The translations under genes were made by a program, and so were the position numbers. Shown here piece by piece: positions 15,932-45,367 of a DNA stretch of 64,000 nucleotides. Origin of the DNA: Halobium salinum (lineage in GTDB: Archaea; Halobacteriota; Halobacteria; Halobacteriales; Haloferacaceae); assembly GCF_026586625.1 (NCBI RefSeq), contig NZ_JAODIW010000005.1, forward strand, positions 248,001 through 312,000, written 5' to 3'. Position 1 is the first letter of the stretch; each line of letters starts with the position of its first letter. Below the pieces are notes generated by a model. It searched no databases, had not been told where the DNA came from, and was given only the letters and a program-made list of their open reading frames with translations.

Positions 15932-16081
15932 ATGCTAGGGATCGAAAGTATGAGCGGGTCGGCGGAAGCGATAGCGACGATAGGGCTCGTCCTCGCGGAG
16001 GCTATCGCACTGTACGTAGGGTACGGCGCTCTCAGCAGCGTCGTCGGAGAGACGATTCTCGACGCAGTCGGGGGTGACTGA
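15932..16081 (+). CDS. 49-residue single-helix membrane peptide (DUF7512-like)
   Basis: Short ORF from ATG 15932 to TGA 16081. It begins MLGIESMSGSAEAIATIG, continues as one hydrophobic helix (about 12-38, LVLAEAIALYVGYGALSS) and ends with an acidic tail. An acidic overall character, haloarchaeal codon use and its stop lying 2 nt before ATG 16084 of the TauE gene support translation. It resembles a small family that I recall next to haloarchaeal TauE genes (DUF7512; not verified). Inference: accessory subunit or stabiliser of the exporter. Confidence 0.75.
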   Translation: MLGIESMSGSAEAIATIGLVLAEAIALYVGYGALSSVVGETILDAVGGD

Positions 16082-16083
16082 GG

Positions 16084-17082: not shown

Positions 17083-17383
17083 CGAGTTCGCCTCACCGAC
17101 GCCGAGTCGACTTCCGAACGGACGTTCGACCGGCGGCCTAACGCTCCCATTCCGAGGGTCGTGTCGTCTCCGCGACGGCCCCCTACACGATTGTAACAGT
17201 GCCACAACAGAGGGATGAGCCGACGGTGTGGACGACGACCTCGGACAATCTTCCACAGAGAGAAGAGCGCCACCGCAAACCCCTCTGGGACGGACTCAGC
17301 GGGTGTTTGCCGATTTCGACAGTCGAAGGTGGAGTTCCGAAGCCGACGAGCTTAAGTGTTTTCCGTGCTGAGTTGTGGGCGTA
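17083..17383. promoter_or_regulatory. Intergenic region with operator-like palindrome and TATA box
   Basis: About 300 bp without a gene. TTCGAC-A-GTCGAA (17315-17327) is a perfect palindrome. CTTAAGTG (17351-17358) is a good archaeal TATA box 26-33 nt before ATG 17384, so the second rhodanese-MBL gene is probably transcribed leaderless from its own promoter. The rest shows nothing recognisable. Confidence 0.5.
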
Positions 17384-18505: not shown

Positions 18506-18519
18506 GCACCGAGGCGAAC

Positions 18520-18524
18520 TTTTT
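18520..18524 (+). terminator. Possible T-tract terminator
   Basis: A TTTTT run 15-20 nt after the stop of the rhodanese-MBL gene; T-rich runs end transcription in haloarchaea. It lies only 2 nt before the next ATG, so it could instead be part of a promoter or be incidental. Confidence 0.3.
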
Positions 18525-18526
18525 CG

Positions 18527-29320: not shown

Positions 29321-30451
29321 ATGGCGCCTGCTAACTATCCGGATTCCAAGACGCGTGACGCGGTAGTTTCGTGCCGAGAACACCTCCCGTCCGAACCGAG
29401 TGGTGGAAGGGTGGTGTTCGGCTTCGATGGCTATGTCGACAACGTTCGAGAAGCCGGGACGAACGCAGGTGCGTCGGATAGCGAGCGTATCGAGACACTG
29501 AGTGAGTTCGGTAAGGAGATTGTCACATCGGCCGCCGCAGGGAGCTCCCTGTCTATCTCGTGGAAGCGTTCCGGACAGCGAACTGGTGGGCACGTGAGCC
29601 ACTTATCGCGTGCGTACCAGAATCTGGGGTTCGACCCGACACTCGTTGGGATGTGTGGAGACCCGGTTCTCGATATCTTCGAGCAGGAGTTCGAGTCGTG
29701 TACGATCCACTCGCTGGGAGACCCGGGAGTCACCGACGCCATCGAGTTCGACGACGGGAAGTTCATGCTGATGGACAGTGGCGGTGCTGCGACGTTGGAC
29801 TGGGAGACGCTCCGATCGACGGTCGGAATCGACACGTTGATCGACGAACTCGGAGGGGCGAAACTGCTTGGAGTTGGCTACTGGGCGATGATCCCCGAAC
29901 TCGGGACCATCTTGGATCAGCTCCGAGAGAACGTATTCCCAGAGTTAACAGACCCACCGCAGCACGTTCTGCTCGACCCGGCGAACATCCGAGAGATCGA
30001 CCGTGAAGTGCTGGAGTCGATCGTCGCGGCGACGGGCCGACTCAGGAACGTCGTCGAGGTGACCGTCTCGGCGAACCGCTACGAAACCAAAGAACTCGCG
30101 ACTGTACTGGGCGACCACACCGGCGACGACCTCGAATCGGACGCTCGCGCCGTGTTCGATGCGTTGGATGTCGACCGGTTCGTCGGACACAGCGCGACCG
30201 AGTCCGTGGTCGTGAGCGATGAGGACACGACGAGTGTTGGCATCGCTCCGGTCGAGTCCCCGGAGTTGACCACCAGCGCAGGGGACCACTTCAATGCGGG
30301 ACTCTCTCTCGGTCTCGTCGAAGGGTTACCCGAAGATGCCGCTGTTGTCCTGGGCAATGCCCTCGCTCGTGTGTTCGTCGAGATGGGCGAGACGCCGTCG
30401 TACGACGACGTCGTAGAGGCAGTCACTACGTACCATAGGCAGTTCGAGTAG
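29321..30451 (+). CDS. PfkB-family sugar/nucleoside kinase
   Basis: A 376-residue cytoplasmic kinase of the ribokinase fold. VVFGFDGYVDNVREAG (about 31-46) binds substrate; GGHVSHLSRAYQNLGFDPTL (about 94-113) matches the N-terminal PfkB GG/N motif; SPELTTSAGDHFNAGLSL (about 309-326) is the second PfkB signature, with catalytic Asp in AGD and the anion hole. Length exceeds typical PfkB (about 300-320), with insertions resembling ADP-dependent sugar kinases. Candidates: ribose-1-phosphate kinase of nucleoside degradation, or an acid-sugar/keto-sugar kinase of the neighbouring cluster. ATG 29321 chosen over a TTG 9 nt upstream. Confidence 0.8.
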   Translation: MAPANYPDSKTRDAVVSCREHLPSEPSGGRVVFGFDGYVDNVREAGTNAGASDSERIETLSEFGKEIVTSAAAGSSLSISWKRSGQRTGGHVSHLSRAYQNLGFDPTLVGMCGDPVLDIFEQEFESCTIHSLGDPGVTDAIEFDDGKFMLMDSGGAATLDWETLRSTVGIDTLIDELGGAKLLGVGYWAMIPELGTILDQLRENVFPELTDPPQHVLLDPANIREIDREVLESIVAATGRLRNVVEVTVSANRYETKELATVLGDHTGDDLESDARAVFDALDVDRFVGHSATESVVVSDEDTTSVGIAPVESPELTTSAGDHFNAGLSLGLVEGLPEDAAVVLGNALARVFVEMGETPSYDDVVEAVTTYHRQFE

Positions 30452-30860: not shown

Positions 30861-32009
30861 TTACGTCTGTTCACTCACCGTGACTTCCGCCTCTGAATCG
30901 AGGGTCCGCTGGTGAATCGTCTCCCCCGAGATCGCATCGAACAGATGAACGTCTTCTTCGGGGATTTTAACGTTTATATGCTCTCCTTCGGTGATCGGTT
31001 GTTTCCCATCCGCCTCTACGACGAACGTCTGGTCGCCTTCCTGCCTCCTCGGTCGGAGATACACGTACGAGATGCTCCCCATCGGTTCGACGACGTCGAC
31101 GACCGCCTCGAACTCGTAGTCGACGTTTGCACGCTCGTGGAGCGTGATGTCCTCCGGGCGGATACCGAGTACGACCTCATCGCACTCCTCGGACGACGAC
31201 TGCATCCGCTCGGTGAGGTCAAAATCGAATCCATCGGCTCGAAGGGTCCCATCTTCGACAGGACCCTCGAAGAAGTTCATCGACGGCGAGCCGATGAACC
31301 CCGCGACGAACCGGTTGGCCGGGCGGTAGAAACACTCGAGGGGCGTGCCGACCTGCTGGAGCTCGCCGTGGTCGAGGACGACGAGGCGGTCGCCCATCGT
31401 CATCGCCTCCGTCTGGTCGTGCGTGACGTACAACGTCGTCACGTCGAGGTCGTTCTGGAGACGGTTGATTTCGGTACGCATCGTCGTCCGGAGCTTGGCG
31501 TCCAGGTTCGACAGCGGCTCGTCCATCAGGAACACGTTCGGGTCACGGACGATGGCGCGACCCAGCGCGACGCGCTGTTGTTGCCCGCCGGAGAGTTCTC
31601 CAGGTTTGTTGTCCAGCAGGTCGCCAATTCCCATCATCTCGGCGGCGGACGTGACCTGCTCTTCGATCTCCGCCTTCGAGAGCTCCGTCGACATCTTCAG
31701 TCCGAACGACATGTTCTCCTCGACGGTCATGTTCGGGTACAGCGCGTAGTTCTGGAACACCATCGCGATGTCCCGTGCGCGCGGGCCGAGTTGGTTGACG
31801 ACCGTGTCGCCGATGTAGACGTCGCCCTCGCTCTGCGTCTCGAGTCCGGCGACCATCCGCATCAGCGTCGACTTCCCGCTCCCGGACGGCCCGACGAACA
31901 CGACGAACTCCCCGTCGCCGATGTCGAGTGAGACGTCGTCGACGGCGACGACCGCGTTGCCTCCCTCTCCGAAGCGCTTCGTGACGTCGTCTAACGTGAT
32001 GTCGGCCAT
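30861..32009 (-). CDS. ABC transporter ATPase (UgpC/MalK type)
   Basis: A 382-residue cytoplasmic ATPase of a CUT1-type sugar/polyol importer. Walker A GPSGSGKSTLMRMVAGLE (about 39-56), Q-loop FQNYALYPNM, signature LSGGQQQRVALGRAIV (about 138-153), Walker B VFLMDEPLSNLDAKLR and H-loop YVTHDQTEAM are all intact. The C-terminal 140 residues form TOBE/OB domains (VVLGIRPEDITLHE). It is last in the leftward operon solute-binding protein, permease, permease, ATPase, with a 127-nt gap after the second permease. The substrate is suggested only by context (acid sugars or polyols). Confidence 0.94.
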   Translation of the reverse strand: MADITLDDVTKRFGEGGNAVVAVDDVSLDIGDGEFVVFVGPSGSGKSTLMRMVAGLETQSEGDVYIGDTVVNQLGPRARDIAMVFQNYALYPNMTVEENMSFGLKMSTELSKAEIEEQVTSAAEMMGIGDLLDNKPGELSGGQQQRVALGRAIVRDPNVFLMDEPLSNLDAKLRTTMRTEINRLQNDLDVTTLYVTHDQTEAMTMGDRLVVLDHGELQQVGTPLECFYRPANRFVAGFIGSPSMNFFEGPVEDGTLRADGFDFDLTERMQSSSEECDEVVLGIRPEDITLHERANVDYEFEAVVDVVEPMGSISYVYLRPRRQEGDQTFVVEADGKQPITEGEHINVKIPEEDVHLFDAISGETIHQRTLDSEAEVTVSEQT

Positions 32010-32136
32010 CAGTTTGCCCCCCTACTGCGGCTGTTCAAGCCCGCCGCGTGGGCGTAGTTCGTGCACGGTGCATCTCGTTCGTTCGCCGTTCGTTCCGACT
32101 CAGTACTCGGGTTCGTGTTCGTATTCAGGTTCGTTC

Positions 32137-33012
32137 TCATTCTTTGATCACCACGCCGAAGCTGAGACCGGCCGCGAGGTACTTGTTCACCGCAATCAGG
32201 AAGACGACCACCGGGACGATCATCGCCGTCGAGGCGGCCGCGAGCATCGACCACTCGATGGAGCGCGAGCCGATGAACGAGTAGACGAACAGCGTCACCG
32301 GCACGGCGTTGAAGCTCGTGAGCACGAGCCCGAACAGCAGTTCGATCCAAGCGAAGATGAACGAGATGATGGCGACCGAGAAGATGCCGGGCTTGGCCGC
32401 CGGGAGGACGACCTTCATGAAGCCTTGGAACTGCGTCGCGCCGTCGACACGGGCGGCCTCCTCCAGCGTCTCGGGAATCCCGTCGAAGAACGCCTTCATC
32501 ACCCACACGACCAGCGAGAGGTTGATGCTGACGTACATCAGCACCATCCCGATGCGCGTGTCGAACAGGTTCAGCTGCTGGAAGATGACGAAAAACGGGA
32601 TGACGACCGCGATGGGCGGGAGCATGCGCGAGGAGAGAATCCACACGAGTACGTCCCGCTCCATCGGGATGTCGTACCGCGAGAGGACGTACGCGGCCGG
32701 CACGCCAATCAGCAGGACGAGCACTACCGAGGCCCCGACCATGACGACGCTGTTGGCGAACGCCGCGACGAACTCCCCGTTCTGGGCGAGCTGGATGTAG
32801 TTGTACACCGTCGGTAGGAACACCCAGTCCGGCGGAAGCGAGTTCGCCTGCCCCGGCGGCTTCAGCGACATCGACGCGAGCCAGTAGAGGGGGAACAACA
32901 CGACGACAGACCACCCCAGCAGGACCGCATGCCGGGCGACCGTGACGAGCGTCTCCTGAGTGTCCTTGTCCAGGCGCTGGGACGACCCCGGTTCGACGTC
33001 GGACGTCGCCAT
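32137..33012 (-). CDS. ABC importer permease 2 (CUT1, MalG-like)
   Basis: A 291-residue membrane protein with six helices; the cytoplasmic EAA loop is EEAARVDGATQFQGFMKVVLPAA-like (about 193-215, with G in DGA). The N-terminal 25 residues are polar and cytoplasmic. The start ATG 33012 shares one base with the stop of permease 1 (TGATG), so the pair is coupled. Together with permease 1 it forms the channel driven by the 30861 ATPase. Sequence around SIEWSMLAAASTAMIVPVVV fits the polyol/sugar MalG subfamily. Confidence 0.93.
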   Translation of the reverse strand: MATSDVEPGSSQRLDKDTQETLVTVARHAVLLGWSVVVLFPLYWLASMSLKPPGQANSLPPDWVFLPTVYNYIQLAQNGEFVAAFANSVVMVGASVVLVLLIGVPAAYVLSRYDIPMERDVLVWILSSRMLPPIAVVIPFFVIFQQLNLFDTRIGMVLMYVSINLSLVVWVMKAFFDGIPETLEEAARVDGATQFQGFMKVVLPAAKPGIFSVAIISFIFAWIELLFGLVLTSFNAVPVTLFVYSFIGSRSIEWSMLAAASTAMIVPVVVFLIAVNKYLAAGLSFGVVIKE

Positions 33013-33944
33013 CAGTCCCACACCCCCTCGAAGCCGACCTTCGCGATGACGATGTTCGCGATGGCGATGACGAAGACGAGGTAGACGACTGCGATGGCAG
33101 TCGCGACCCCCGGCGAGTTGTTGATGAACATCTGCTCGTAGATGTTGATACTCACGAGTTGGGTGGCCGTTCCCGGTCCACCGTTCGTCAGGCCGTACAC
33201 GACGCCGAACGTCCGGAAGAGGTCGATCATCCGGATGAGGGTGGCGACGAACACCACCGGCTTCATGTACGGGATGATGACGTGGACGTACCGACGCCAC
33301 AGCGGCGCCCCGTCGACCCGCGACGCCTCGACGAGCGTGTCGGGCACCGACGAGAGCCCGGCGTAGAAGATGATGAACATGAACGGCGTCCAGTTCCACG
33401 TGTCGAGCAGAATCACGGTCAGCAGTGGAATCTCAGAGAGGAACGCCGGCGCCGCAAAGGGCGTCGCCGTGTTGATGAGGTACGGGACGACCCCGATCTC
33501 GGTGTTCAGCATGATGCGGCCGATGGTCGCGAGCGAAACGGGGGCGACCGCCATCGGGATGATGAACAGCACCCGGTAGAACGACTTTAGCCGCGAGGAC
33601 TCCACGCCAGTGACGAGCGCGGCGAGAGAGAACCCGAGGACGCTCTCGAGGGCGAGTGCGCTGACGACGACCGTGACCGTGATGACGAACGAGTGTAGTG
33701 CGCCGCCGCGTGTGAATGCCGTCTGGTAGTTACTCAGACCGACGAACTCGGCCTCGAAGACGTTCAGCGTCGGCTCCGCGATGACGCTGAGGTAGAGATC
33801 GTAGGCGCCGGGGAAGAAGGTGATCATCACCATCACCAGCACCATCGGCGCCACGAACCAGTACGGGAGATAGTCGTTGAAGACGTCCCGGACCCTGGCG
33901 GTGCCTGTCCGCTGTTTTCTATCTGTCTGTGTTGGTGTACTCAT
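33012..33944 (-). CDS. ABC importer permease 1 (CUT1, MalF-like)
   Basis: A 310-residue six-helix permease starting MSTPTQTDRKQRTGTARVRD. The EAA loop VEASRVDGAPLWRRYVHVII (about 205-224) and FGVVYGLTNGGPGTATQLVS (about 242-261) are typical MalF/UgpA signatures. It is 12 nt after the solute-binding gene and overlaps permease 2 by one base. It forms a heterodimer with permease 2 in the membrane. Confidence 0.93.
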   Translation of the reverse strand: MSTPTQTDRKQRTGTARVRDVFNDYLPYWFVAPMVLVMVMITFFPGAYDLYLSVIAEPTLNVFEAEFVGLSNYQTAFTRGGALHSFVITVTVVVSALALESVLGFSLAALVTGVESSRLKSFYRVLFIIPMAVAPVSLATIGRIMLNTEIGVVPYLINTATPFAAPAFLSEIPLLTVILLDTWNWTPFMFIIFYAGLSSVPDTLVEASRVDGAPLWRRYVHVIIPYMKPVVFVATLIRMIDLFRTFGVVYGLTNGGPGTATQLVSINIYEQMFINNSPGVATAIAVVYLVFVIAIANIVIAKVGFEGVWD

Positions 33945-33956: not shown

Positions 33957-35393
33957 TTAGTCGGAGCCGTAGATGTCTTCGGCGACCTTCGCTGCCTGCT
34001 TCATCGCCTTCTCGGCGGGTTTCTGGCCGGCGATAGCGCGCTGTAGCTCCTCGGAGTACCGCTGGCCCCACTCGGGGTACTTGCGGTCGAACGGGTCCGG
34101 CGCTGCCTGCTTCAGCGACTCGAGCGAGACCTGTGCGTAGTCTTCGCCGACCTTCGATCGGTAGTCGTCGTTTTCCCACACCGACTGCCGCACGGAGAAC
34201 ACGCCGCTGCTCTCAAGGTGCATCCACATATCGGTCGGCTGGGACGTCGCCCACACCATGAACAGGAATGCCTGCTCGGAGTTCTTGGCGTTTTTCGACG
34301 TCGAAATCTGCCAATTGAACGCGTTCGGGTTGAGTTCACCGCCTTCCGGCTTGGGGACCTTCGCGATTCGGACGGTATCGGCAACGCTGGACTCGTCATT
34401 AGTGAGCCCGCCCCAGAACATGTTGGCGTCGGCGACGATGTGGCCCGTGCGACCTTCCTGCATCGTCGCTTGTACGTCGGACCAGGTCTGGGTGGACGCT
34501 CCTTCCGGACCAAAGTCCTGAAGCAGCGTACTGTACCAGTCTGCCGCTTCAATTACGCCCTGAGTGTCCAGTCCGGAGTCGTTGGGGAAATCGCTCCAAA
34601 GCTTGGTCCCCTTCTGTCGGAGAAGCGTATTCAGGATATAGATATTCATCCCGTAACCCTTCTGACCACGACCGGCCGTGCCGACGATGTCGGACTCTTC
34701 TTCGTGGATAACCTTCGCGTTCTCACGGTGGTGTTCCCACGTCTCTGCGACCTCCAGTCCGTGCTTGTCATAGAGGTCTTGGAGGTAAAATTGAGTCTGG
34801 ACCTCGACGGTGATGGGCAATCCAGTCCACTTGTCACTGTATCCGCCACCGTGGGCCTGCCAGCGTGACGCCTCGAACAGGTCATCAGGCTTGTACCAAC
34901 CCTCATCATACAGGCTGCTATCGTTGAAGTACGTGTCGAGCGGCTGGAGCCACCCCTCGTCACGGAACTGGTTGACCACCTGATCCATGAAGAAGACGTC
35001 GAACTGGCCGGCGCCGGTGCTCACGTCGGTCTGTCGCTTGGTCCGGAACTGCTGCTCGGGCAGGATGTTCCACTTGACGTCGATGCCGGTGAGTTCCTCG
35101 AACACCGGAATAGCGGGCTTGATCGCCGACACCCACGGATGCTGGACGGCGCCGATGTTGATCTGGTCCCCCTCGAACTGCTTCCACTCGATGTTCGCGT
35201 CCTGGTACTTGCTGAGTGGGATGGCGAGTTCGCCGGAGGAGCCGCCACCACTGCTATTACCCGAGTTACTCGAGTTTCCTCCTCCCCCTCCACTCGAACC
35301 CCCGCGCGTGCATCCCGCGAGACTACCCAGTACACCTGCACTCGTTACACCTGCTGCTTTCAGAAACCGGCGTCTCTCCTGGTCGCTGGTCAT
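33957..35393 (-). CDS. ABC importer solute-binding lipoprotein
   Basis: A 478-residue exported binding protein. A twin-arginine/lipobox signal (ERRRFLKAAG, then LAGC with Cys28) is followed by a Gly/Ser/Asn linker (29-55) and the cluster-B sugar-binding fold: INIGAVQHPWVSAIKPAIPV, VFEELTGIDVKWNILPE, FDVFFMDQV, and a hinge near GLPITVEVQTQFYL. It is first in the importer operon, whose promoter lies at about 35395-35450 (minus strand), with AT-rich GATTATAGTGG near 35421-35431. The ligand is unknown; the size and partners fit sugar/polyol binding proteins. The central part (34240-34920) uses slightly less GC-rich codons. Confidence 0.92.
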   Translation of the reverse strand: MTSDQERRRFLKAAGVTSAGVLGSLAGCTRGGSSGGGGGNSSNSGNSSGGGSSGELAIPLSKYQDANIEWKQFEGDQINIGAVQHPWVSAIKPAIPVFEELTGIDVKWNILPEQQFRTKRQTDVSTGAGQFDVFFMDQVVNQFRDEGWLQPLDTYFNDSSLYDEGWYKPDDLFEASRWQAHGGGYSDKWTGLPITVEVQTQFYLQDLYDKHGLEVAETWEHHRENAKVIHEEESDIVGTAGRGQKGYGMNIYILNTLLRQKGTKLWSDFPNDSGLDTQGVIEAADWYSTLLQDFGPEGASTQTWSDVQATMQEGRTGHIVADANMFWGGLTNDESSVADTVRIAKVPKPEGGELNPNAFNWQISTSKNAKNSEQAFLFMVWATSQPTDMWMHLESSGVFSVRQSVWENDDYRSKVGEDYAQVSLESLKQAAPDPFDRKYPEWGQRYSEELQRAIAGQKPAEKAMKQAAKVAEDIYGSD

Positions 35394-35527
35394 GGTATGA
35401 CTACCGTACTCACACCACTATAATCATTGCACTTAATCCTTTCCCAAAATTCGGTGCGATTAGTACCAGCGGCCGGGTGCGACCGACCCCGGGTACTTAG
35501 CTACCCCACGTTGAACCGATTACTGCA

Positions 35528-36304
35528 ATGGACTGTGACCTCACAGACAAGACCGCACTGATATCCGGGTCCGGAAGGGGAATGGGACGGGCGTCCGCGG
35601 AAGAACTGGCACGAAACGGCGCGGACGTCGTCGTCAACGACGTCGACGAGGCGGTGGCCGAAGAGACCGCGGCGGACGTTCGCGACCTCGGCGTCGACGC
35701 GATCGGCGTCCCCGCAGACGTGAGCGACGGAGCAGAAGTGGCTGCGATGGTCGAAACGGCGGTGGACGAGTTGGGACCGATCGATATCCTCGTCAACAAC
35801 GCCGGTGTGGGCGATTCCGGGCCGTTTCTCGATGGGGAGTACGACGAGACGTTCGAACTGAATCTCGACGTCCACCTCCACGGGGCGTTGAACTGTACCC
35901 GGGAGGTCGTCGACGGGATGGTCGAGCAACAGTACGGAAAGATAATCAACTTCACCTCGATCCACACGAAGAACGGGGTCGGGATGTCGCCCGCGTACGA
36001 CGTCGCGAAGTACAGTCTGCTGGGGCTGACGAAGAGCCTCGCTCTCGAACTCGGGCGGGAGGGTATCCGCGTCAACGCGGTCGCCCCTGGATGGGCGAAC
36101 ACCAGACTGACCGAGGGGTTCAGCGATGCAGTCACCGAGCAGATTCTCGACAACAACCCGCTCGGGCGGTTCGCCGAACCCGAAGAGGTCGCCGACGCAG
36201 TGGCCTTCCTGGCCGCCCCGGCGAGTGACTATATCAACGGCCACGAGCTCCGCGTCGACGGCGGACAGGTGCCCATCGACAGTTGGCGACTGGACAGTCG
36301 ATAG
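35528..36304 (+). CDS. SDR-family dehydrogenase
   Basis: A 258-residue NAD(P)-dependent short-chain dehydrogenase. Cofactor motif LISGSGRGMGRASAEELARN (TGxxxGxG, about 11-30); NDVDEA with Asp after the second strand suggests NAD preference; NNAG at about 90-93; catalytic Ser/Thr in INFTSIH, then Tyr and Lys in SPAYDVAKYS (YxxxK). A C-terminal GHELRVDGGQ strand is standard. Likely oxidises an alcohol or lactol of the imported carbohydrate. A TATA-like GTACTTAGC near 35491-35500 lies 28-37 nt upstream. Divergent from the importer operon. Confidence 0.92.
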   Translation: MDCDLTDKTALISGSGRGMGRASAEELARNGADVVVNDVDEAVAEETAADVRDLGVDAIGVPADVSDGAEVAAMVETAVDELGPIDILVNNAGVGDSGPFLDGEYDETFELNLDVHLHGALNCTREVVDGMVEQQYGKIINFTSIHTKNGVGMSPAYDVAKYSLLGLTKSLALELGREGIRVNAVAPGWANTRLTEGFSDAVTEQILDNNPLGRFAEPEEVADAVAFLAAPASDYINGHELRVDGGQVPIDSWRLDSR

Positions 36305-36342
36305 ACCCCCGACACTGGCAGCCCACCCGAGTAGCACCAATA

Positions 36343-36350
36343 TTTATATA
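36343..36350 (+). promoter_or_regulatory. TATA box of the zinc dehydrogenase transcript
   Basis: TTTATATA is the strongest TATA match here. It predicts a transcript starting near 36375, which leaves about 170 nt of leader before ATG 36547, unusual where most genes here look leaderless. The leader has no clear structured element. Confidence 0.5.
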
Positions 36351-36546
36351 CAATGTCCGGGTGTATTCGCTTGGAGTTACATCGTGTACAGGACTCGGCC
36401 TCGACCGTGGGCGGAGCCCCATCCCTCCTGCGAACGTCGAGGTTCCCCGAGTCTCACGATACAGCGATAGCAATGATACAGATACACAGACGCGACGTCC
36501 GAGTCGAAGAGCCAGAGCCAGCAACCAGCTATCCACGGAGACGACG

Positions 36547-37578
36547 ATGCGCGTAGCCTCACTGACGGACGTCGGCGAGATGAACGTAGAGGAGCGAGAA
36601 CGTCCGGAACCGAAACCGGACGAGGTCGTGATACGCGTCGGTGCGTGTGGCGTCTGCGCGACCGACCTCCACATGTACCACGGGTCGTACGCCGTGGACT
36701 TCCCGATCGTGCTGGGCCACGAGAGCGCCGGCACCGTCACGGCGGTGGGGTCGGACGTCACCGGCGTGGAGTCCGGTGACCGCGTCGCGTTGAACCCCGC
36801 GGTGCCGTGTGGGACCTGTTCGTATTGTAAGCGTGGGAAGACGAACCTCTGTGATAACGCGACCGCGATCGGCGGTGCCGGCGACCGCATCATCGACGGC
36901 TCGTTCGCCGAGTACGTCCGAGTGCCAGCGGGCAACGTCGAGAAGGTCGGCGACCTGCCGTTCGACCACGCCGCCCTCGCCGAGCCACTCGGCTGCTGTG
37001 TTCACGCTGCCAACCGCAGCGGCGTCGGGCAGGCGGACAGCGTCGCGATAATCGGTGCCGGACCGATCGGGCTCATGATGTTACAGACGCTTCGGAACCG
37101 TGGTGCGGGGCCGATAGCTGTCTCGGAACTCGACCCGAAACGTCGCGAAGTCGCCGCCGAGATGGGCGCGGACCTCGTGGTCGATCCCAGCGAAGGCGAC
37201 CCCGTCGAAACGATTCGAGACGAGATCGGTCCGGTCGACGCCGGCATCGAGGTCGTCGGGCTGGTCCCGACCATCCAGCAGGCCTACGACGTGACCGCCA
37301 AAGGGGGCAACACGCTCATCGTGGGTGTGCCGAAGCAAGACGCGACGATGGAGATCAATCCCTTCGAGCTCTACTACAACGACCTCGACATCCGTGGGAC
37401 GTTCGCGCTCACACAGGAGACGTTCGAACGAGCAGTGTCACTGCTCCGGCAGGGCCGTATCGACGCCGAGTCGCTCGTGACCGAAGAAATCGGTCTCGAA
37501 GACATCCCCGACGCGTTCGAACGGATGGAGAACAACGAAGGGCTGAAGAAGGTCGTCATCCCCGGCGACAGCGACTGA
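36547..37578 (+). CDS. Zinc-dependent alcohol/polyol dehydrogenase
   Basis: A 343-residue medium-chain dehydrogenase. Catalytic zinc ligands are Cys in GACGVCATDLHMYHG (about 33-47), His-Glu in LGHESAGTVTAVG and a later Glu in ALAEPLGCC. The structural zinc lobe is CGTCSYCKRGKTNLC (four Cys, about 91-105). The NAD(P) motif IIGAGPIGLMMLQTL (about 166-180) is followed by ELDPKRREVAAEMGA, with acidic Glu suggesting NAD. It resembles sorbitol/threonine/idonate dehydrogenases. Position between the SDR and acid-sugar kinase suggests oxidation of a polyol or sugar acid. ATG 36547 gives the family N-terminus. Confidence 0.92.
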   Translation: MRVASLTDVGEMNVEERERPEPKPDEVVIRVGACGVCATDLHMYHGSYAVDFPIVLGHESAGTVTAVGSDVTGVESGDRVALNPAVPCGTCSYCKRGKTNLCDNATAIGGAGDRIIDGSFAEYVRVPAGNVEKVGDLPFDHAALAEPLGCCVHAANRSGVGQADSVAIIGAGPIGLMMLQTLRNRGAGPIAVSELDPKRREVAAEMGADLVVDPSEGDPVETIRDEIGPVDAGIEVVGLVPTIQQAYDVTAKGGNTLIVGVPKQDATMEINPFELYYNDLDIRGTFALTQETFERAVSLLRQGRIDAESLVTEEIGLEDIPDAFERMENNEGLKKVVIPGDSD

Positions 37579-37591
37579 CGGACTCGGTCTC

Positions 37592-37596
37592 TTTTT
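37592..37596 (+). terminator. Possible T-tract terminator
   Basis: A TTTTT run 14 nt after the zinc dehydrogenase stop, in GTCTCTTTTTCGC; there is no strong hairpin. It would separate this gene from the kinase transcript. Confidence 0.35.
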
Positions 37597-37797
37597 CGCT
37601 GCCAACTTCGAACCTCTCGGAGAAGTTCGAACTCCAGGGAAGCAGGAGCCACATCGGATTGGTATTTCTCGTCTTCCACCCTGCAACGGGGCAGCGACGT
37701 GCGAACGTTTCTTTACGGCGTGTCTCCCAAGACGACCCATGGACGGTCGCAGTCCAGCCGAGCGTGTTCAGTACGAGAACCGTCGAGAGGGACGACC

Positions 37798-39069
37798 ATG
37801 AGCCGATTTGTCGTCGTCGCAGACGACCTGACCGGCAGCTGTGACGCCGGCCACGAGTTCGCGAGGCGAGGGTACGACACCCGGGTCGTGCTCTCCCCAC
37901 AGTCGGATAGGAGGTCGCAGGGGGACGTCAGCGTATACGACACTGCATCACGCTACGTGGTACCCGCCGACGCCGCCGAGTGCGTTCGAACGGTTCTCGA
38001 GGGTTCCGACTCCCCCGTCGTCTACAAGAAGGTCGATTCGACCCTTCGCGGGAACGTTCGCGCGGAGGTCGAAGCTGCCACGCGAGCGGTCTCTCCCGAC
38101 CTGGTCGTCGTCGCTCCGGCGTTTCCGGCCAACGGACGGGTGACGGCGTGTGGGTACCACCTCGTCGACGGACAGTTGGTGACCGAGTCACCGCCCGGAG
38201 GGGACGAGGAACGACCGCCGACACACGACTCCCTCCCGGCGTTCTTCGCGTCGAGTGAGTATCCCGTCGAGCGAGTCGGCGTCGAAGCGGTCTCGCGCGG
38301 TGTGACTGCCGTGCGTGAGGCGTTCGAGTCGTCGTGTTCGACGGAGGAACCGGTCGTCGTCGCCTGCGACGCCGTGACGGACGGCCACCTCGAAACACTC
38401 GCCACGGCGGCCGACGACTTCTCCGGGCGATGTCTGTACGTCGGGAGCGGTGGTCTCGCCCGCCACGTCGTCGTCCCGGGGAGGCCATCGGGGTCCGACT
38501 CGAGCGTCGACGAGAATCGGTCCGTGGTGGGCGTGTCCGGGAGCGTCGCACCGGAGACGCTCGAGCAGGTCACGGCGGTATCGAAGGACCGGCGGCGACA
38601 GCTCGACCTCGAGACGGCGGTCACCGACCCGTCCACCGCGGGGGGCGACCTGGCGTCCCGTGGGGGTGCTGTCGCCGCCGAATACGGGGGTGTGCTCCTC
38701 CACAGTGCCGAGACACGTGACGACGTCGACCGAGCGACGGTCGCCGGCGAACGGGCTGACGTCGATGGGTCGACGGTTCGACGCCGAGTGTCGACGGCGC
38801 TTGCTATCGGTGCTGCGGAGGTCGCCAAGGACGGCCACGCGTCGAACCTCTTTCTCACGGGCGGGGCAACTGCCCGGGCGGTCCTCGAAACCCTCGACGC
38901 GACGGCGCTCCGCATGGCCGGGGAGGAGGTCGCCTCGGGAATACCGCTAGCGACGGTAGAGGGGGGCCCAGCGGACGGGGTGACGGCAGTCACGAAAGCG
39001 GGCGGGTTCGGCAGCGAGCGGGTAATAATTAAGTCCCTCGCTCGTCTCGGTCTTCCCGATGAGCGATAG
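37798..39069 (+). CDS. Four-carbon acid-sugar kinase (DUF1537, DtnK/OtnK-like)
   Basis: A 423-residue kinase. FVVVADDLTGSCDAGHEFAR (about 4-23) is the diagnostic DUF1537 N-terminal motif; KKVDSTLRGNVRAEVEAA (about 82-99) contains the substrate-binding DSTLRGN; the C-terminal nucleotide-binding domain has NLFLTGGATARAVLETL and GPADGVTAVTKAGGFG. Known members phosphorylate D-threonate, L-threonate or D-erythronate at O4. It overlaps the following PdxA2-type gene by 11 nt, the known DtnK-PdxA2 pairing that yields DHAP from D-threonate. ATG 37798 chosen because it starts the family motif. Confidence 0.9.
   Translation: MSRFVVVADDLTGSCDAGHEFARRGYDTRVVLSPQSDRRSQGDVSVYDTASRYVVPADAAECVRTVLEGSDSPVVYKKVDSTLRGNVRAEVEAATRAVSPDLVVVAPAFPANGRVTACGYHLVDGQLVTESPPGGDEERPPTHDSLPAFFASSEYPVERVGVEAVSRGVTAVREAFESSCSTEEPVVVACDAVTDGHLETLATAADDFSGRCLYVGSGGLARHVVVPGRPSGSDSSVDENRSVVGVSGSVAPETLEQVTAVSKDRRRQLDLETAVTDPSTAGGDLASRGGAVAAEYGGVLLHSAETRDDVDRATVAGERADVDGSTVRRRVSTALAIGAAEVAKDGHASNLFLTGGATARAVLETLDATALRMAGEEVASGIPLATVEGGPADGVTAVTKAGGFGSERVIIKSLARLGLPDER
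39024..39033 (+). promoter_or_regulatory. Internal TATA box for pdxA2
   Basis: AATAATTAAG within the 3' end of the kinase gene lies 26-35 nt before ATG 39059, the archaeal spacing for a leaderless transcript. It stands out as an AT block in GC-rich coding DNA and could allow separate expression of the dehydrogenase. Confidence 0.5.
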
Positions 39070-40057
39070 ACTACCGACTATCGGCGTTACCATGGGTGAT
39101 CCGGCAGGCATCGGAAGCGAAGTCATCGTCAAATCACACTCGACGTCGGTCGAGACGGCGAACGTGGTGGTGATCGGCGACGCGTCCGTTCTGGCGGACG
39201 CGGCAGACCGGTTCGCCCCGGACCTGACCGTGCGCCGTGTCGACTCGCCCGCGGCGGCCGACGCCGACCCCGAGGTACTTCCGGTGGTCGACCTCGATAA
39301 CGTGTCCGCCCACCAGTACGGGGAGCTTTCACAGGATAACGGCGAGGCGAGCCTCGAGTACATCCAGCGAGCGATCGAACTCGCGCAGGCCGGTGAGATC
39401 GACGGCATCACGACCGCGCCCATCAACAAGCAGGCGACCCGGATGGCGGGGAGTGAGTACGCGGGCCACACCGGAATGCTCGCCGACTACAGCGATACCG
39501 ACGACTACTCGATGATGCTCATCGAAGACGAGTTGACGGTGACGCACGTCAGTACACACATCCCACTGCGAGAGGCCTGTTCCCAACTCACCGTCGACGA
39601 CGTCGCGTCGACGATTACCGTCACGGACGAGGCACTACGCGACCTCGGTATCGACGACCCTGCTATCGCCGTCGCGGGGCTGAATCCCCACGCGAGCGAC
39701 GGTGGACTCCTCGGCGACGAGGAAGCGGAGACCATCGAACCGGCGGTGGACCGTGTCGCGAAGACGGGCGTCGACGTCACCGGACCTCACTCGCCGGACA
39801 CGGTGTACGTTCGAGCCGCGGCAGGTGAGTTCGACTGTGTCGTCTCGATGTATCACGACCAGGGCCACATTCCGATCAAGATGCTCGGCTTCACCGGCAA
39901 CGACGATGCGGTCAGCGGTGTCAACGTTACCATCGGGCTCCCGATCGTCCGGACGAGCGTCGACCACGGAACAGCCTTCGACATCGCCGGCGACGGAGTC
40001 GCCTCCGAGCAGAGTATGATCGACGCGGTGGCGACGGCCGTCGAACTCGTCCGATAG
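39059..40057 (+). CDS. pdxA2: PdxA2-type 4-phospho-threonate dehydrogenase
   Basis: A 332-residue NAD-dependent dehydrogenase/decarboxylase. IGVTMGDPAGIGSEVIVKS (about 8-26) is the PdxA signature. SEYAGHTGMLADY gives the first metal His, THVSTHIPLRE a second, and MYHDQGHIPIKMLGF the C-terminal metal/phosphate loop; TVGLPI-like and TSVDHGTAFDIAG close the fold. True PdxA acts in pyridoxal phosphate synthesis, a DXP-dependent route not expected in archaea. The overlap with the DUF1537 kinase points to PdxA2: 4-phospho-D-threonate to DHAP, CO2 and NADH. Confidence 0.9.
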   Translation: MSDRLPTIGVTMGDPAGIGSEVIVKSHSTSVETANVVVIGDASVLADAADRFAPDLTVRRVDSPAAADADPEVLPVVDLDNVSAHQYGELSQDNGEASLEYIQRAIELAQAGEIDGITTAPINKQATRMAGSEYAGHTGMLADYSDTDDYSMMLIEDELTVTHVSTHIPLREACSQLTVDDVASTITVTDEALRDLGIDDPAIAVAGLNPHASDGGLLGDEEAETIEPAVDRVAKTGVDVTGPHSPDTVYVRAAAGEFDCVVSMYHDQGHIPIKMLGFTGNDDAVSGVNVTIGLPIVRTSVDHGTAFDIAGDGVASEQSMIDAVATAVELVR

Positions 40058-40113
40058 ACGCGGGTCCCCGCTATCGCTGCTCCGAACAACTGTGCGAGTT
40101 CGTGCCCGGGAGG

Positions 40114-40812
40114 TTACACCAACGCGAAGGCACGAACCGAACATCCACCCGTTCCCTGGACGTTGAGCGGCGGGAAAAAGAAGTCCGCACGCCGACTGTC
40201 CGCACCGTCGAGCACTTGATCGAGGTTCCGTAGCTCCTCGATAGGGATGACGTCGTTCTCGAGTAGCGGGAGATGCGAATCGGCCGGGTGGACGTCGGTC
40301 GACGGTCCGTGGGCCGGCACCTCGTCGTACCACCCGCCGACACTCGCCCCTTCCGTTCCCACTGCCTTCGGGTCCAGCGAAGCGACGTACTCCGCGGCCT
40401 CACCGGTCAGATAGGGGAACTCGAAGAGGTACTCGGGGGTCTGACCGTAGTACTCGTCCCACCCGGTGTGAAGCATGACGACGTCACCGGGCTGAATCTC
40501 GGACTCGTAGGCCTCGATGTCGGCACGAGCTATCGACTCCTCCGGCTCTTTCGGCGTCAAGTCGATGACCACGCCCTCGCCCATGAACCGGTCGATAGCG
40601 AAGTCGTCCAGCGTCTTCCCTTCGGGGATGAAGTGTGCCGGGGCGTCGATGTGAGTCGCAGTGTGGCTCCGCATCTCCAGCCGTTCCATCGTGAACCCGT
40701 CGCGTGCGGCCAACGACGTCCGTTCCAGGTCGACCGGTGGAAAACTCGGCCACACCGGGATGTTCTCGTTGATCGGGTTGGACAGCTCGATGACTTCCTT
40801 GGAGTCGAGCAT
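40114..40812 (-). CDS. Cyclase-family (kynurenine-formamidase-like) hydrolase
   Basis: A 232-residue metal-dependent hydrolase. The family motif is SHTATHIDAPAHF (about 49-61; HxxTHxDxPxH metal ligands). VIDLTPKEPEESIARADIEA and VVMLHTGWDEYYGQ follow; the C-terminal block ends PLNVQGTGGCSVRAFALV. Family members hydrolyse N-formylkynurenine, isatin, or cyclic amides and esters. In this cluster it could open a sugar lactone (e.g. threono-lactone); that is inference. Promoter: ACTTATC (minus; plus 40837-40843), 25-31 nt upstream of ATG 40812. Confidence 0.87.
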   Translation of the reverse strand: MLDSKEVIELSNPINENIPVWPSFPPVDLERTSLAARDGFTMERLEMRSHTATHIDAPAHFIPEGKTLDDFAIDRFMGEGVVIDLTPKEPEESIARADIEAYESEIQPGDVVMLHTGWDEYYGQTPEYLFEFPYLTGEAAEYVASLDPKAVGTEGASVGGWYDEVPAHGPSTDVHPADSHLPLLENDVIPIEELRNLDQVLDGADSRRADFFFPPLNVQGTGGCSVRAFALV

Positions 40813-40836
40813 GGCAGAGCCGACAGACTAGGGGAA

Positions 40837-40843
40837 GATAAGT
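40837..40843 (-). promoter_or_regulatory. TATA box of cyclase-family gene
   Basis: ACTTATC on the minus strand, 25-31 nt before ATG 40812, identical to the core upstream of the 26513 gene. It lies just past the DeoR stop, so the hydrolase has its own start site in addition to any read-through. Confidence 0.5.
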
Positions 40844-40850
40844 ATTGTGC

Positions 40851-41615
40851 TCAGCGGAACACATCTTCGACGAACTCGGTGTCATCGAACAGATCGCGAT
40901 AGTCGTCGGGAACACGACCGTCGGTGACGAGGAGGTCGATGTCGTCGATGGTCCCGAATCGCCGGAAGCTCTGCTCGCCGAACTTGTCGGTGGTGGTGAC
41001 GACGACAGTTCGTGCCGCGTGCTCTACGGCGAGCTGCTTGATCTTCGCCTCGGACTCGTTCGGTGCCGACAACGCACCCGTGGGTTCGATACCGTTTACG
41101 CCGATGAACGCGAGGTCGAAAGACGAGTTTCGAATGTAATCCTCCGTCGTCGGCCCGATCAGTGCCTTGGTCTCGCTCCGGTACTCTCCACCCGTCAGTT
41201 GGACCGTTCCGTCCGCTTTGGATAGTTCCGGCAACAGCAGTGGAGCGTTGGTGACGATGATAGTCGAACTGTCATCAGGGATTTCCTTGGCGACCTGCAT
41301 CGTGGTCGTCCCTGCGTCGAAGAAGACGACTTGACCTTCGTGAATCTCTTCGACGGCTCGCTCCGCAATGGCCTGCTTGCGGTCCAGGTTCTGGACGAGA
41401 CGACGGTCGAACGCTCGTTCGACGCCGACGTTCGTCACGGGAACGGCGCCGCCGTGCGTCCGTTCGACGAGGTTCCGCTCGTCGAGGTCGGAGAGGTCGC
41501 GCCTGATGGTGGACGGCGACACGTCGAGATGTCCGGCCAACTCCTCGACCGAGAGCCCGCCGTGTTTCGTAACCAGTTCCGTGACGGACCGCCGCCGCTG
41601 TTCGGGGGTGCTCAT
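40851..41615 (-). CDS. DeoR/GlpR-family transcriptional regulator
   Basis: A 254-residue repressor. The N-terminal DeoR HTH is EQRRRSVTELVTKHGGLSVE (5-24) and LAGHLDVSPSTIRRDLSDLD (27-46), followed by the family phrase RTHGGAVP. The C-terminal sensor domain of the phospho-sugar-isomerase fold has FFDAGTTTMQVAKEI, VTNAPLL, TGGEYRSETKALIGPTTED and VVTTTDKFGEQSF. Ligands are usually phosphorylated sugars. In haloarchaea GlpR controls fructose/glucose kinases. Here it lies inside the acid-sugar cluster, upstream of the hydrolase and downstream of an aldolase, and probably regulates these. Confidence 0.93.
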   Translation of the reverse strand: MSTPEQRRRSVTELVTKHGGLSVEELAGHLDVSPSTIRRDLSDLDERNLVERTHGGAVPVTNVGVERAFDRRLVQNLDRKQAIAERAVEEIHEGQVVFFDAGTTTMQVAKEIPDDSSTIIVTNAPLLLPELSKADGTVQLTGGEYRSETKALIGPTTEDYIRNSSFDLAFIGVNGIEPTGALSAPNESEAKIKQLAVEHAARTVVVTTTDKFGEQSFRRFGTIDDIDLLVTDGRVPDDYRDLFDDTEFVEDVFR

Positions 41616-41690
41616 GAGACGACCCCCCTGGGCTGGCCCGTTTGCCGCACCGACGCCGTTGGCATGGCTACGACTACAGCCGAGCGGTAT

Positions 41691-42530
41691 TTAGCTCTCT
41701 CGTCCACCCGGAACTGCTGCGGCCTCCGGTTCTTCCCAGACTTCTTCGACGGAGGCCCCTTCGTGGACGATTTTCGTGAGCGCGGAGACCGTCCGTGCTG
41801 GGTTCTCGGACTTCCAGATGGTTCGCCCGATCATCAGTCCACGTGCCCCGGCGTCCATCGCGCCTTCGACCGATTCGAGCATGGCCCGAGTGGTGTCGGT
41901 CGCTGGCCCACCGAGTATCATCACCGGGACCGGCGAGTTCCGCACCAGGGGTTCGAAGGATTCCACACTACCTGTGTACGGTGCTTTGAGGATATCAGCT
42001 CCGAACTCCCAGCCCATGCGCATGGCGTCGGCCACATATTCGGGGTCTGTCTCCAGTTGACCCGGAACCCGTTCGCCCCACATGACGGGTTCGACGACGA
42101 GTGGGACGCCCGTTCCACGCAGCTCTTCGGCGAGCTGCCCGATGTACTCGACGTTGCGGCGGAACGTCTCGTTGTTGTCACGGCCGAACACGAGGACCGT
42201 TTTGACGCCGACGGGGTCGAGTTCCCGGAGGAACTCGGCGTCGAACGCTGGCGTCCAGAGGTCCTGCCCGTGGTCCCGACCGGGACTGGTCGACCACGTC
42301 ACGACGTCTGCCGTGAGAACGACGTCGACGTCGGCCTCCCGTAGCCGGTCCTGATAGTGACGGGCGAAGTGGGGGCCGATGAGTACCGCGTCGGGCTCCC
42401 CGCGTAGTACTTCGTCGAGTGTCTCTTCGGGCGTCTCGAACCCCTCCGGCGAGCCGAGACTGAGGCCGTGATCCAGCGCTACGACGACTGCGTTCCCTGA
42501 CGGCGTGTCTAGAAGCTCTGTTTGGGTCAT
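41691..42530 (-). CDS. DeoC/FbaB (LsrF-like) class I aldolase
   Basis: A 279-residue TIM-barrel aldolase. VVVALDHGLSLGSPEGF (15-31) corresponds to the DHG motif of the archaeal FBA/LsrF/ADH-synthase family; VPLVVEPVMWGERVPG, GADILKAPYTGS (Schiff-base Lys182), VPVMILGGPATDTTRAMLES and GLMIGRTIWKSENPAR complete it. It differs clearly from the 27696 aldolase, e.g. DHGLSLG for DHGLEHG, so it may act on another phospho-ketose. Promoter with a TATA and a repeated TAACCGTT at 42558-42589. It lies 75 nt before the DeoR gene on the same strand. Confidence 0.87.
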   Translation of the reverse strand: MTQTELLDTPSGNAVVVALDHGLSLGSPEGFETPEETLDEVLRGEPDAVLIGPHFARHYQDRLREADVDVVLTADVVTWSTSPGRDHGQDLWTPAFDAEFLRELDPVGVKTVLVFGRDNNETFRRNVEYIGQLAEELRGTGVPLVVEPVMWGERVPGQLETDPEYVADAMRMGWEFGADILKAPYTGSVESFEPLVRNSPVPVMILGGPATDTTRAMLESVEGAMDAGARGLMIGRTIWKSENPARTVSALTKIVHEGASVEEVWEEPEAAAVPGGRES

Positions 42531-42557
42531 CGACTTCGATTGTGGTGAATATGGCCA

Positions 42558-42589
42558 CCTATTTAACCGTTTTCCTAGCGGTAACCGTT
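42558..42589 (-). promoter_or_regulatory. Aldolase promoter with direct repeat TAACCGTT
   Basis: Minus-strand TATA GGTTAAATAGG (plus 42558-42568) lies 28-38 nt before ATG 42530. TAACCGTT occurs at 42564-42571 and again at 42582-42589, 18 bp apart, flanking or overlapping the TATA. This is a candidate operator for the adjacent DeoR/GlpR-type regulator. Confidence 0.5.
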
Positions 42590-43370
42590 ATATCGTCCGC
42601 CAGCCGCCATCGACCATCAGAACCTCGCCGGTCACGTAGTCGGCATCGTCACTGGCGAGATAGAGGGCGGCCCCGGCGACGTCTCCGGGTGTTCCCGCAC
42701 GTCCTGCAGGAACTGGTTTGATGAGGTCGTCCTTCTGAGCTGCCTCCGGCGCCTGCTCCGACCATCCGTCGATGAACTCCGTGGCTATCTGGCCGGGGCC
42801 AACTGCGTTTACTCTGATGTCGTGGTCCGCTAGTTCGAGGGCTGCCCCTCGAGTGATCATCTTGACAGCGGCCTTCGTCGAGTCGTACTGTATCTGGTCG
42901 TGTTGAGCCACGAACGAACTGATCGAGGCAGTGTTGACGATTGTACCCTCGACACCACGGTCGATCATGTCCTGTGCTGCCGCCTGGCAGCCGAAGAACA
43001 CTCCCTTCGCATTGACCTGATGGATCTTCTCGAATTCGTCTTCGGAGACGTCGAGCAGGCTCCCGCCGATGAACAACCCTGCATTGTTCACCATCACGTC
43101 GACACCGCCGTGTTCCCGGGCACGTTCGACGACCGCACGAATCTCGTCGGCGTTCGAAACGTCCGTTTCCACGAACTCGGACGTTCCACCCTGATTCCGG
43201 ATCGCTTCGTGCGTCGGCGTCTCCGCGACTTTGGGCTCGGACTCGATGTCCGCGTTCAGTACTGTCGCCCCCGCGTCGGCGAAGCGTAGCGCGATCGCAC
43301 GTCCGATACCAGAGGTCGCGCCGGTGACCACGACGGTGTCTCCCTCGAAGTCGGTGCTGTAGTCAGGCAT
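42588..43370 (-). CDS. SDR-family dehydrogenase
   Basis: A 260-residue short-chain dehydrogenase. [20 protein letters not shown] (12-31) binds cofactor; NADIES follows strand 2 (Asp, NAD-type); NNAGLFIGG; catalytic Ser in NTASISSF and YxxxK in [12 protein letters not shown]-terminal [16 protein letters not shown] use ATG 43370, 25-32 nt after the TATA CTTTATTT (plus 43395-43402), rather than the in-frame upstream start. It is first in the leftward row SDR-aldolase-DeoR-hydrolase. It likely oxidises a sugar or sugar acid in the same pathway. Confidence 0.92.
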
Positions 43371-44614
43371 CGTAGCGAGTATGGGTGGATTTCGAAATAA
43401 AGATTTGGGGTCTTCCTGTCGAGCGCAGCTCATTTCCCACGTGTGTTGAATATTACTATTTATAGAAAGATGATTTTAGTATGAAATACCCAATATTAAT
43501 TTCTATATTGTTACATGATAACGAGAGGCGCCCCCATGAGACGCTGTGACGCTGTGTCCGAAATCGCACTAATAATCAGGTGGAATAGATTCTTTTGCGT
43601 GGTTTAGAGATAAATTACGAGATATCAGTCAGACACATACAGAGGTAGTGTAAATAACAGCACTAACCTCATTAGGTCTTCATTCACTACTCTCCATTCC
43701 ACATACAAGTATTATGATTTTTATTTGTATTGATTATTGACCCATGTTAGAGTCTCGCTGGTGGGTATACACACAGAGAGTCGTCGGACCGGAGACCGAC
43801 GTCGGTTGTCTATCGCTTCCGAACGGGATGTGGCGATTCAGTCTCACAGATGCGACTTGTGAACCGGCCGGGTCGTGACGTCGAACAACCGAGATAGTAC
43901 AGACCTGCTCGACACACGTCGTGGGGCAGGTGGTGAGGAGCGTCGTGAGCGTGAAACGCCGACGCTGCTCGTCGCATCGTTTCGCTGTCACGCGTACAGA
44001 CGTGGACTACTCGGAGTACTTCGAGTAAAGTCTCAAACCGGCTCGGTCCGCTCGTTTGTCAACCGGCCCGCTGACCGGCAAGCGACCGACCTCGTGAACA
44101 AAAATAACACCATTACACCTGTTATTATAGAGAGAACTGGTGTTTAGCGACCATGCAGCAGAGGTGGCTACGTTGACCGGAGTCCTATCGGCGTGAGTTT
44201 CGAAAAGTTCTGGCATCGTCTCACCCACTATTCGGTACAAGACCGCTTCGCTCGATGCATCTGTCTGAGAGACGTAGAGCCGAGCACGGGTTGCGTTCTT
44301 CGTCGAATGGCTTAGCAACGACGAGCACAAATCTAATGCTTCCGATCGGTTCGAAGAATTATCAGACTTCCGGCTCCCGATGAGGATAGGACGGTTACGC
44401 CGACGATACCGACGAAACGGCGCTGTTGGGTAGATACGCCCAACGTCGGGGAGTTCCGAGAGATGGAGCCCGTTGGAGGAATCGCAGACCAGAGATAGTG
44501 CGCTGGTCGACGCGCCGTCAGCGATGCCGTCCGAACGAACCCGACGGTCGCGACGGTCGCGATAGGTCCCCACGGATGGGGTACGTTTTTGTGAGGCCCG
44601 TTCCAGAGGAAGGT
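43371..44614. other. 1.2-kb region, AT-rich left part, no convincing gene
   Basis: 43430-43740 is strongly AT-rich with no credible frame. 43740-44580 has open frames on both strands, including a minus-strand frame over 44007-44573 (contains RLYVSQTDASSEAVLYRIVG), but none has the acidic composition of neighbours and I recognise no family. AATAACA (44103-44109) and TGTTATT (44120-44126) form a small inverted repeat. TACGTTTTTG (44582-44591) is the likely TATA of the ThuA gene. Confidence 0.5.
43395..43402 (-). promoter_or_regulatory. TATA box of SDR-aldolase-DeoR row
   Basis: CTTTATTT on the minus strand, 25-32 nt upstream of ATG 43370, the archaeal TATA position for a leaderless mRNA. Confidence 0.5.
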
Positions 44615-45367
44615 ATGTCGAACGACATCCGCGTCACCGTCTGGAACGAGTTCGTCCACGAACAGGAGAGCGAGACGGTCGCCGAAGTGTACCCGGACGG
44701 AATCCACGCCGTCGTCGCCGACGCCCTGCGCGAGGGCGGCTTCGACGTGGAGACCGCGACCCTGCAGGAGCCCGAACACGGCCTCACCGAGGCAGTCCTC
44801 GACGACACCGACGTGCTCACCTGGTGGGGCCACGCCGCTCACGACGAGGTGTCCGACGAGGTCGTGGAGCGCGTGAAGTCGCGGGTGCTCGATGGGATGG
44901 GGTTGCTCGTGCTCCACTCGGGGCACTTCTCCAAGATATTTCGTGAACTGATGGGGACGAGTTGCGCCCTCAAGTGGCGGGAGGCCGCGGAGACCGAACG
45001 CCTGTGGGTGACGAACCCCGCCCACCCCATCGTCGACGGGGTCGACGAGTACATCGAGGTACCCGACGCAGAGATGTACGGCGAACACTTCGACATCCCG
45101 GAGCCGGACTCGCTCGTCTTCACCTCCTGGTTCGAGGGCGGTGAGGTGTTCCGTTCCGGCTGTTGTTACTATCGCGGCGAGGGGCGCGTGTTCTACTTCC
45201 GGCCGGGGCACGAGACGTACCCGGTGTACCATCAGGAGGATATTCGGCAGGTGCTCCGCAACGCCTGCGGGTGGGCGGCGCCGAACGACGACGGTCCGGC
45301 GGTCGTCCGCGGGAATCACGAGCCGTTGGCGGAAATCGACACCTCCGACGACCGGACCGTCCACTGA
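44615..45367 (+). CDS. ThuA-like (trehalose-utilisation) glutamine-amidotransferase-fold protein
   Basis: A 250-residue cytoplasmic protein. [20 protein letters not shown] (5-24), [58 protein letters not shown] (about 96-113) and [20 protein letters not shown] match the ThuA family of class I glutamine-amidotransferase-like folds; the nucleophile Cys of true amidotransferases is replaced by Ser in LHSGHFS. ThuA-like proteins act in oxidation or processing of disaccharides by an unclear mechanism. ATG 44615 lies after a TATA-like TACGTTTTTG. It is monocistronic. Confidence 0.9.

Follow-up and report, generated by a model that had tools for sequence, protein, structure and literature searches.

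A predicted hexitol module joined to a putative tetronate-to-DHAP module in the haloarchaeon Halobium salinum

Introduction

Bacteria reportedly degrade D-threonate by a pathway that consists of a DUF1537 kinase (DtnK) plus PdxA2 and is said to have been described by Zhang et al. in PNAS in 2016. A haloarchaeal gene cluster for hexitol use, mscSKGFEMR, is known from Haloarcula hispanica; mutants of mscE and mscM have been published, and deletion of mscE abolished growth on mannitol and sorbitol (PMC11519228). Here we report the computational analysis of a gene cluster that unites relatives of both systems in Halobium salinum. It lies in a stretch of 64,000 nucleotides (contig NZ_JAODIW010000005.1, positions 248,001 to 312,000; hereafter the window), in which an earlier note, made from the DNA letters and their translations, had already pointed out a sugar-acid cluster at 33957-43370.

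We read the region, with a probability of about 0.6, as the union of a hexitol/fructose module with a second one that leads from tetroses or tetronates to dihydroxyacetone phosphate (DHAP), the substrates of both being predicted. The first module would comprise the importer, the zinc-dependent dehydrogenase, SDR1, the ketohexokinase, the DeoR-type regulator and the class I aldolase. Hexitols (mannitol, sorbitol) would be imported and then oxidised to fructose, which would be phosphorylated to a ketose-1-phosphate and cleaved by the aldolase into DHAP and glyceraldehyde. The second would comprise the kinase, PdxA2, SDR2 and the cyclase-family enzyme. SDR2 would oxidise a tetrose at C1 to a lactone, the cyclase-family enzyme would open the lactone to a tetronate (D-threonate or D-erythronate), the DUF1537 kinase would phosphorylate the tetronate at C4, and PdxA2 would oxidatively decarboxylate the 4-phosphotetronate to DHAP and CO2; both modules would deliver DHAP to central metabolism. 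What the sequences show directly is the gene content, the domains, the orthology to msc, the linkage of kinase and PdxA2 and the separability of the modules. The chemistry of each step is predicted from the enzyme families, and the exact substrates, the lactonase role and the direct cleavage of fructose-1-phosphate are speculative.

Results and discussion

Gene content

Domain and profile scans recovered all genes that the earlier note had named, each where it had been placed. The cluster extends beyond the interval given there: the importer ATPase and both permeases (30861-33944) fall outside it, and a ketohexokinase-family gene that is part of the conserved neighbourhood had been overlooked. 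The features are as follows.

29411..30451, plus strand: ketohexokinase-family (PF25270) sugar kinase, assigned to the hexitol/ketose module; Pfam Khk 428.8 bits
30861..32009, minus strand: CUT1 importer ATPase, MscK orthologue
32137..33015, minus strand: CUT1 importer permease, MscG orthologue
33012..33944, minus strand: CUT1 importer permease, MscF orthologue; Pfam BPD_transp_1
33957..35393, minus strand: solute-binding protein, orthologue of MscE (mannitol/sorbitol)
35528..36304, plus strand: SDR1, probably the hexitol module's second polyol dehydrogenase
36547..37578, plus strand: zinc-dependent medium-chain dehydrogenase, MscM-like (predicted mannitol to fructose)
37798..39069, plus strand: DUF1537 four-carbon acid sugar kinase, DtnK-like; PF07005 169 bits, PF17042 71 bits
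39059..40057, plus strand: PdxA2-type putative 4-phosphotetronate dehydrogenase/decarboxylase; PF04166 351 bits
40114..40812, minus strand: cyclase-family (PF04199) metal hydrolase, candidate lactonase; Pfam 120 bits
40851..41615, minus strand: DeoR/GlpR-type regulator; NCBIfam TranRegGlpR_Halo 367 bits, cut-off 300
41691..42530, minus strand: class I aldolase of the DeoC/LacD type, which may cleave ketose-1-phosphates; Pfam DeoC 115 bits
42588..43370, minus strand: SDR2, which may serve the tetrose/tetronate module as an aldose 1-dehydrogenase; NCBIfam glucose 1-dehydrogenase subfamily, 234 bits against a cut-off of 215

The dehydrogenase probably starts near 36547. The reading frame of the kinase is open from 37699, but translation probably begins at 37798, as judged from the alignment of its relatives and from the motif MSRFVVVADDLTG.

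The kinase/PdxA2 pair

As in the bacterial DtnK-PdxA2 pathway, the two families are adjacent and co-directional, the genes overlap (by 11 bases) and the second is of the PdxA2 rather than the PdxA type. Unlike that pathway, the pair is archaeal, its kinase is about 25-35% identical to bacterial relatives and scores below equivalog cut-offs, and it is joined to a hexitol module; its haloarchaeal relatives are usually accompanied by a nickel isomerase. Both DUF1537 domains of the kinase (SBD_N and NBD_C) exceed the gathering cut-offs. Its best NCBIfam model is that of D-threonate kinase (NF047819, named for the gamma group; 208.8 bits, cut-off 450), and it reached 113.4 bits with the 3-oxo-tetronate kinase model, below the cut-off. 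PdxA2 scored 311.2 bits with the D-threonate 4-phosphate dehydrogenase model NF002891 (cut-off 583), and 273-285 bits with the PdxA2-type structures 6e85, 2hi1 and 4jqp, the first of which bears the name D-threonate 4-phosphate dehydrogenase, compared with about 179 for E. coli PdxA. A search of the genome found one PdxS and no PdxJ; on this genomic evidence, a function of the PdxA homologue in vitamin B6 synthesis was considered and rejected. The overlap, the PdxA2-type relatives and this PdxJ/PdxS pattern uphold the earlier proposal of a catabolic DtnK-like/PdxA2-like pair in an archaeon.

The kinase is present in 61 of 392 Halobacteriales genomes, and PdxA2 occurs somewhere in all 61. At 62 of 66 haloarchaeal kinase loci a PdxA2 gene of the same orientation is found no more than 1 kb away, a linkage that is not due to chance, and the two genes were found together in all 20 loci examined for their neighbourhood. 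These neighbourhood statistics count related genomes without correction for kinship, and gene calls in the relatives are mechanical; G- and L-numbers below denote the genomes and loci compared, the window genome being G000 and its contig C10. Four-carbon acid catabolism is thus indicated, as a prediction, for a sizeable minority of haloarchaea. The view that no archaeal version had been described fits the open-access literature, where we found no paper treating both threonate and haloarchaea, although such genes occur fairly widely in haloarchaea and already carry the family-level annotations "four-carbon acid sugar kinase" and "PdxA". Haloferax volcanii, the control genome, has matches to both families. 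Neither a class II aldolase (OtnC) nor an OtnI-like domain was seen among the scanned genes of the cluster, as had been noted before; the preference for threonate over erythronate once drawn from this absence is not decidable from it. A second kinase/PdxA2 pair without the neighbours seen in the window cluster is located on the same contig (C10:61248-63717, L035).

A nickel-pincer isomerase that tracks the kinase

Many haloarchaeal kinase/PdxA2 pairs adjoin a gene for a 437-residue protein that scores 486-496 bits (cut-off 400) with NCBIfam NF052515, the nickel pincer cofactor-dependent isomerase group 22 of the LarA superfamily. Proteins at least about 52% identical were found in 52 genomes, and all but one of these are among the 61 that have the kinase (Fisher p 1e-52, kinship uncorrected), and 35 of the 53 copies lie within 500 bases of the kinase or PdxA2. 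Copies with 39-40% identity adjoin the pair at five bacterial loci. By position and motif, the invariant residues R70, K180 and H196 correspond to R75, K184 and H200, which bind the nickel-pincer nucleotide (NPN), and the invariant H102 and H167 to the catalytic H108 and H174. These residues are also kept in the five bacterial copies; D72 is apparently replaced by Ala. A sequence search against the PDB gave no meaningful match, and all 17 PDB fold matches of an AlphaFold model (pLDDT 83) at E <0.001 were to LarA-family proteins. LarC, which acts in NPN synthesis, is encoded in 52 of the 52 isomerase genomes versus 327 of the 392 overall (Fisher p 7e-5, kinship uncorrected).

Because LarA homologues C2-epimerise 4-deoxy-threonate/erythronate (PMC11770544), D-erythronate/D-threonate 2-epimerase activity is the natural prediction for group 22 and suggests a substrate for an orphan group of nickel-pincer isomerases, which we did not find mentioned in the LarA papers searched. 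The isomerase is absent from the window cluster. Its single copy in the genome (C10:144380) belongs to a different sugar-acid cluster on the same contig and therefore need not serve the cluster studied here. That cluster (C10:135000-154999, L071) contains a CUT2 importer and gluconolactonase-like, SDR, group 22 isomerase, ketol-acid-reductoisomerase-like, class II FBP aldolase-family and FGGY kinase genes.

The kinase and PdxA2 might instead act on another sugar acid that can be phosphorylated at C4, for example a branched or C5 acid, which we consider quite improbable. Outside its four closest relatives, no haloarchaeal kinase shares more than 47% identity with the one in the window, which falls below the equivalog cut-offs, and some relatives adjoin altronate/galactarate-dehydratase-type, FAA-hydrolase and ketol-acid-reductoisomerase-like genes, all of which would suit such a substrate. 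Against it stand the proximity of PdxA2 to structures of the D-threonate-4-phosphate dehydrogenase type and the linkage to a nickel-dependent 2-hydroxyacid isomerase, which fits a pair of C2-epimers such as erythronate and threonate. For an apionate pathway, prompted by the ketol-acid-reductoisomerase-like neighbours at some loci, no usable open-access literature was found.

Importer and dehydrogenase

On pHH400, H. hispanica encodes a protein with 74.5% identity to the binding protein; we identify it as MscE because the gene order at its locus matches that of the published msc cluster (PMC11519228). The importer subunits share 74.5, 85, 89 and 82% identity with MscE, MscF, MscG and MscK, respectively, and the gene order is kept; the zinc-dependent dehydrogenase is 64% identical to the mannitol dehydrogenase MscM and 41% to MscS. 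This orthology makes hexitols the most likely predicted substrate of the importer. The layout is divergent in both species, with the MscM-type gene pointing away from mscE, and a ketohexokinase-family enzyme acts downstream in H. hispanica too. Unlike the msc cluster, the window cluster has SDR1 between these two genes, lacks MscS and the IclR-type MscR, having one zinc-dependent dehydrogenase, SDR1 and DeoR instead, and holds a ketohexokinase and an atypical aldolase. Genes for a class II aldolase, a rhamnulokinase-family protein, an SDR and a galactonate dehydratase also lie within the msc cluster on pHH400 (L075 16585-20796).

The earlier note had assigned the importer to the kinase/PdxA2 pair, in a pathway for D-threonate or a tetritol with a dedicated CUT1 importer. 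The importer and the SDR1-dehydrogenase-kinase-PdxA2 genes are indeed divergent and tightly packed, and CUT1 importers of another type adjoin kinase/PdxA2 in Haladaptatus. However, importer and dehydrogenase are orthologous to a proven hexitol system and cluster without kinase/PdxA2 in relatives, which renders this model very improbable; a threonate importer was judged unlikely on the same orthology to MscE/F/G/K. The transporter assignment is thus corrected from threonate to hexitols.

Separability of the two modules

In genomes G115 and G138, the aldolase, DeoR, zinc-dependent dehydrogenase, SDR1 and importer genes are clustered, and kinase/PdxA2 are absent from the 20 kb examined. The SDR1 orthologues (88-91%) sit between dehydrogenase and importer, and a ketohexokinase homologue (44-45% identical to that of the window) is encoded just beyond the 20-kb stretch. 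Halobellus limi likewise has an msc-type importer, together with a ketohexokinase homologue and an aldolase that adjoin each other, without the kinase/PdxA2 module. Conversely, SDR2 is found close to kinase/PdxA2 in genomes that lack aldolase and ketohexokinase nearby: SDR2-type genes accompany the pair in L042, L047 and L051, the last with a cyclase-family gene as well, and L081 combines cyclase-family, SDR2, kinase, PdxA2 and nickel isomerase genes in the absence of ketose genes. Orthologues of the cyclase-family enzyme with 92-94% (G351, G324), 67% (G115) and 71% (L081) identity are encoded near kinase/PdxA2. This recurrence renders plausible the previously suggested route from aldose via lactone, acid and 4-phosphate to DHAP. 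Since each module occurs without the other in relatives, we favour the reading of two joined modules.

Several observations weigh against it. Both kinase and PdxA2 miss the NCBIfam equivalog cut-offs for threonate enzymes. In the four closest relatives, SDR2-aldolase-DeoR, PdxA2-kinase and a close ketohexokinase form a cluster, from which the msc importer is missing in three (G351, G292, G322; ketohexokinase 76-82%); G324 has an msc-type plus a CUT2 importer, in a cluster that apparently spans the ends of contig C3. Of the genomes searched, just the four relatives with a closely related kinase have the ketohexokinase subtype of the window (77-82%). Ketohexokinase and aldolase may thus belong functionally with the kinase; because they can be assigned to either module, the whole cluster might be one linear ketoheptose pathway. 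The ketohexokinase would form a heptulose-1-phosphate (e.g. sedoheptulose-1-phosphate), the aldolase would release D-erythrose along with DHAP, SDR2 together with the cyclase-family enzyme would yield D-erythronate, the nickel epimerase (in relatives) would convert this to D-threonate, and kinase/PdxA2 would produce a second DHAP. Such a route would account for every core enzyme conserved in G351 and G324 (which share SDR2, aldolase, DeoR, cyclase, PdxA2, kinase, nickel isomerase, CUT2 importer and ketohexokinase) and for the joint occurrence of ketohexokinase and kinase subtypes. It would also suit the separate second ketohexokinase (49-50%) of G351, G324, G292 and G322, whose gene is no more than 100 bases away from that of a 1-phosphofructokinase for fructose. 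We nevertheless consider it unlikely, as heptulose use is unsupported by evidence, the same aldolase subfamily occurs in kinase-free hexitol clusters, and cyclase-family and nickel isomerase genes are missing from the cluster in two relatives. An undescribed archaeal breakdown of ketoheptoses, or of other ketose-1-phosphates that yield a tetrose, to two DHAP and CO2 is rather unlikely as well.

Aldolase and fructose-1-phosphate

Under the favoured reading of two modules, the aldolase would act on fructose-1-phosphate. It shares the fold family, the Schiff-base lysine (K182) and the catalytic aspartate (D20; Asp24 in Thermoproteus tenax), both invariant in the alignment, with archaeal class I fructose-1,6-bisphosphate (FBP) aldolase (T. 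tenax 1OJX) and the ADH synthase MJ0400. Unlike 1OJX, it lacks a tyrosine at the position of Tyr146, which is catalytic in archaeal class I FBP aldolase (PMC4881948), and carries a VEPVMWG-type motif, which is conserved in most relatives. DeoR adjoins the aldolase gene in G351, G324, G292, G322, G115 and G138, and in Halobellus limi and others a ketohexokinase homologue lies in the same cluster as the aldolase.

The ketohexokinase of the window is the sole such gene found in its genome. Growth of H. hispanica on hexitols requires 1-phosphofructokinase; such an enzyme was clearly recognised in eight other genomes (271-300 bits) but not in that of the window, G115 or G138, where the best matches reached 53-62 bits. 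Fructose-1-phosphate would therefore need another outlet, and we reasonably infer that the aldolase may cleave it directly, in a possible archaeal route resembling that of animal liver. Aldolase and 1-phosphofructokinase are both present in G352 and G355.

Other features of the window

No Rfam RNA elements were found within the window. Upstream of the cluster are a class I FBP-aldolase-like gene (27696-28520) and a gene related to ribose-1,5-bisphosphate isomerase (25340-26191), and a ThuA-domain gene (44426-45367) lies just outside it. Two rhodanese/metallo-beta-lactamase fusion genes, a TauE-type exporter and an MFS transporter at 13661-19810 possibly belong to sulfur metabolism.

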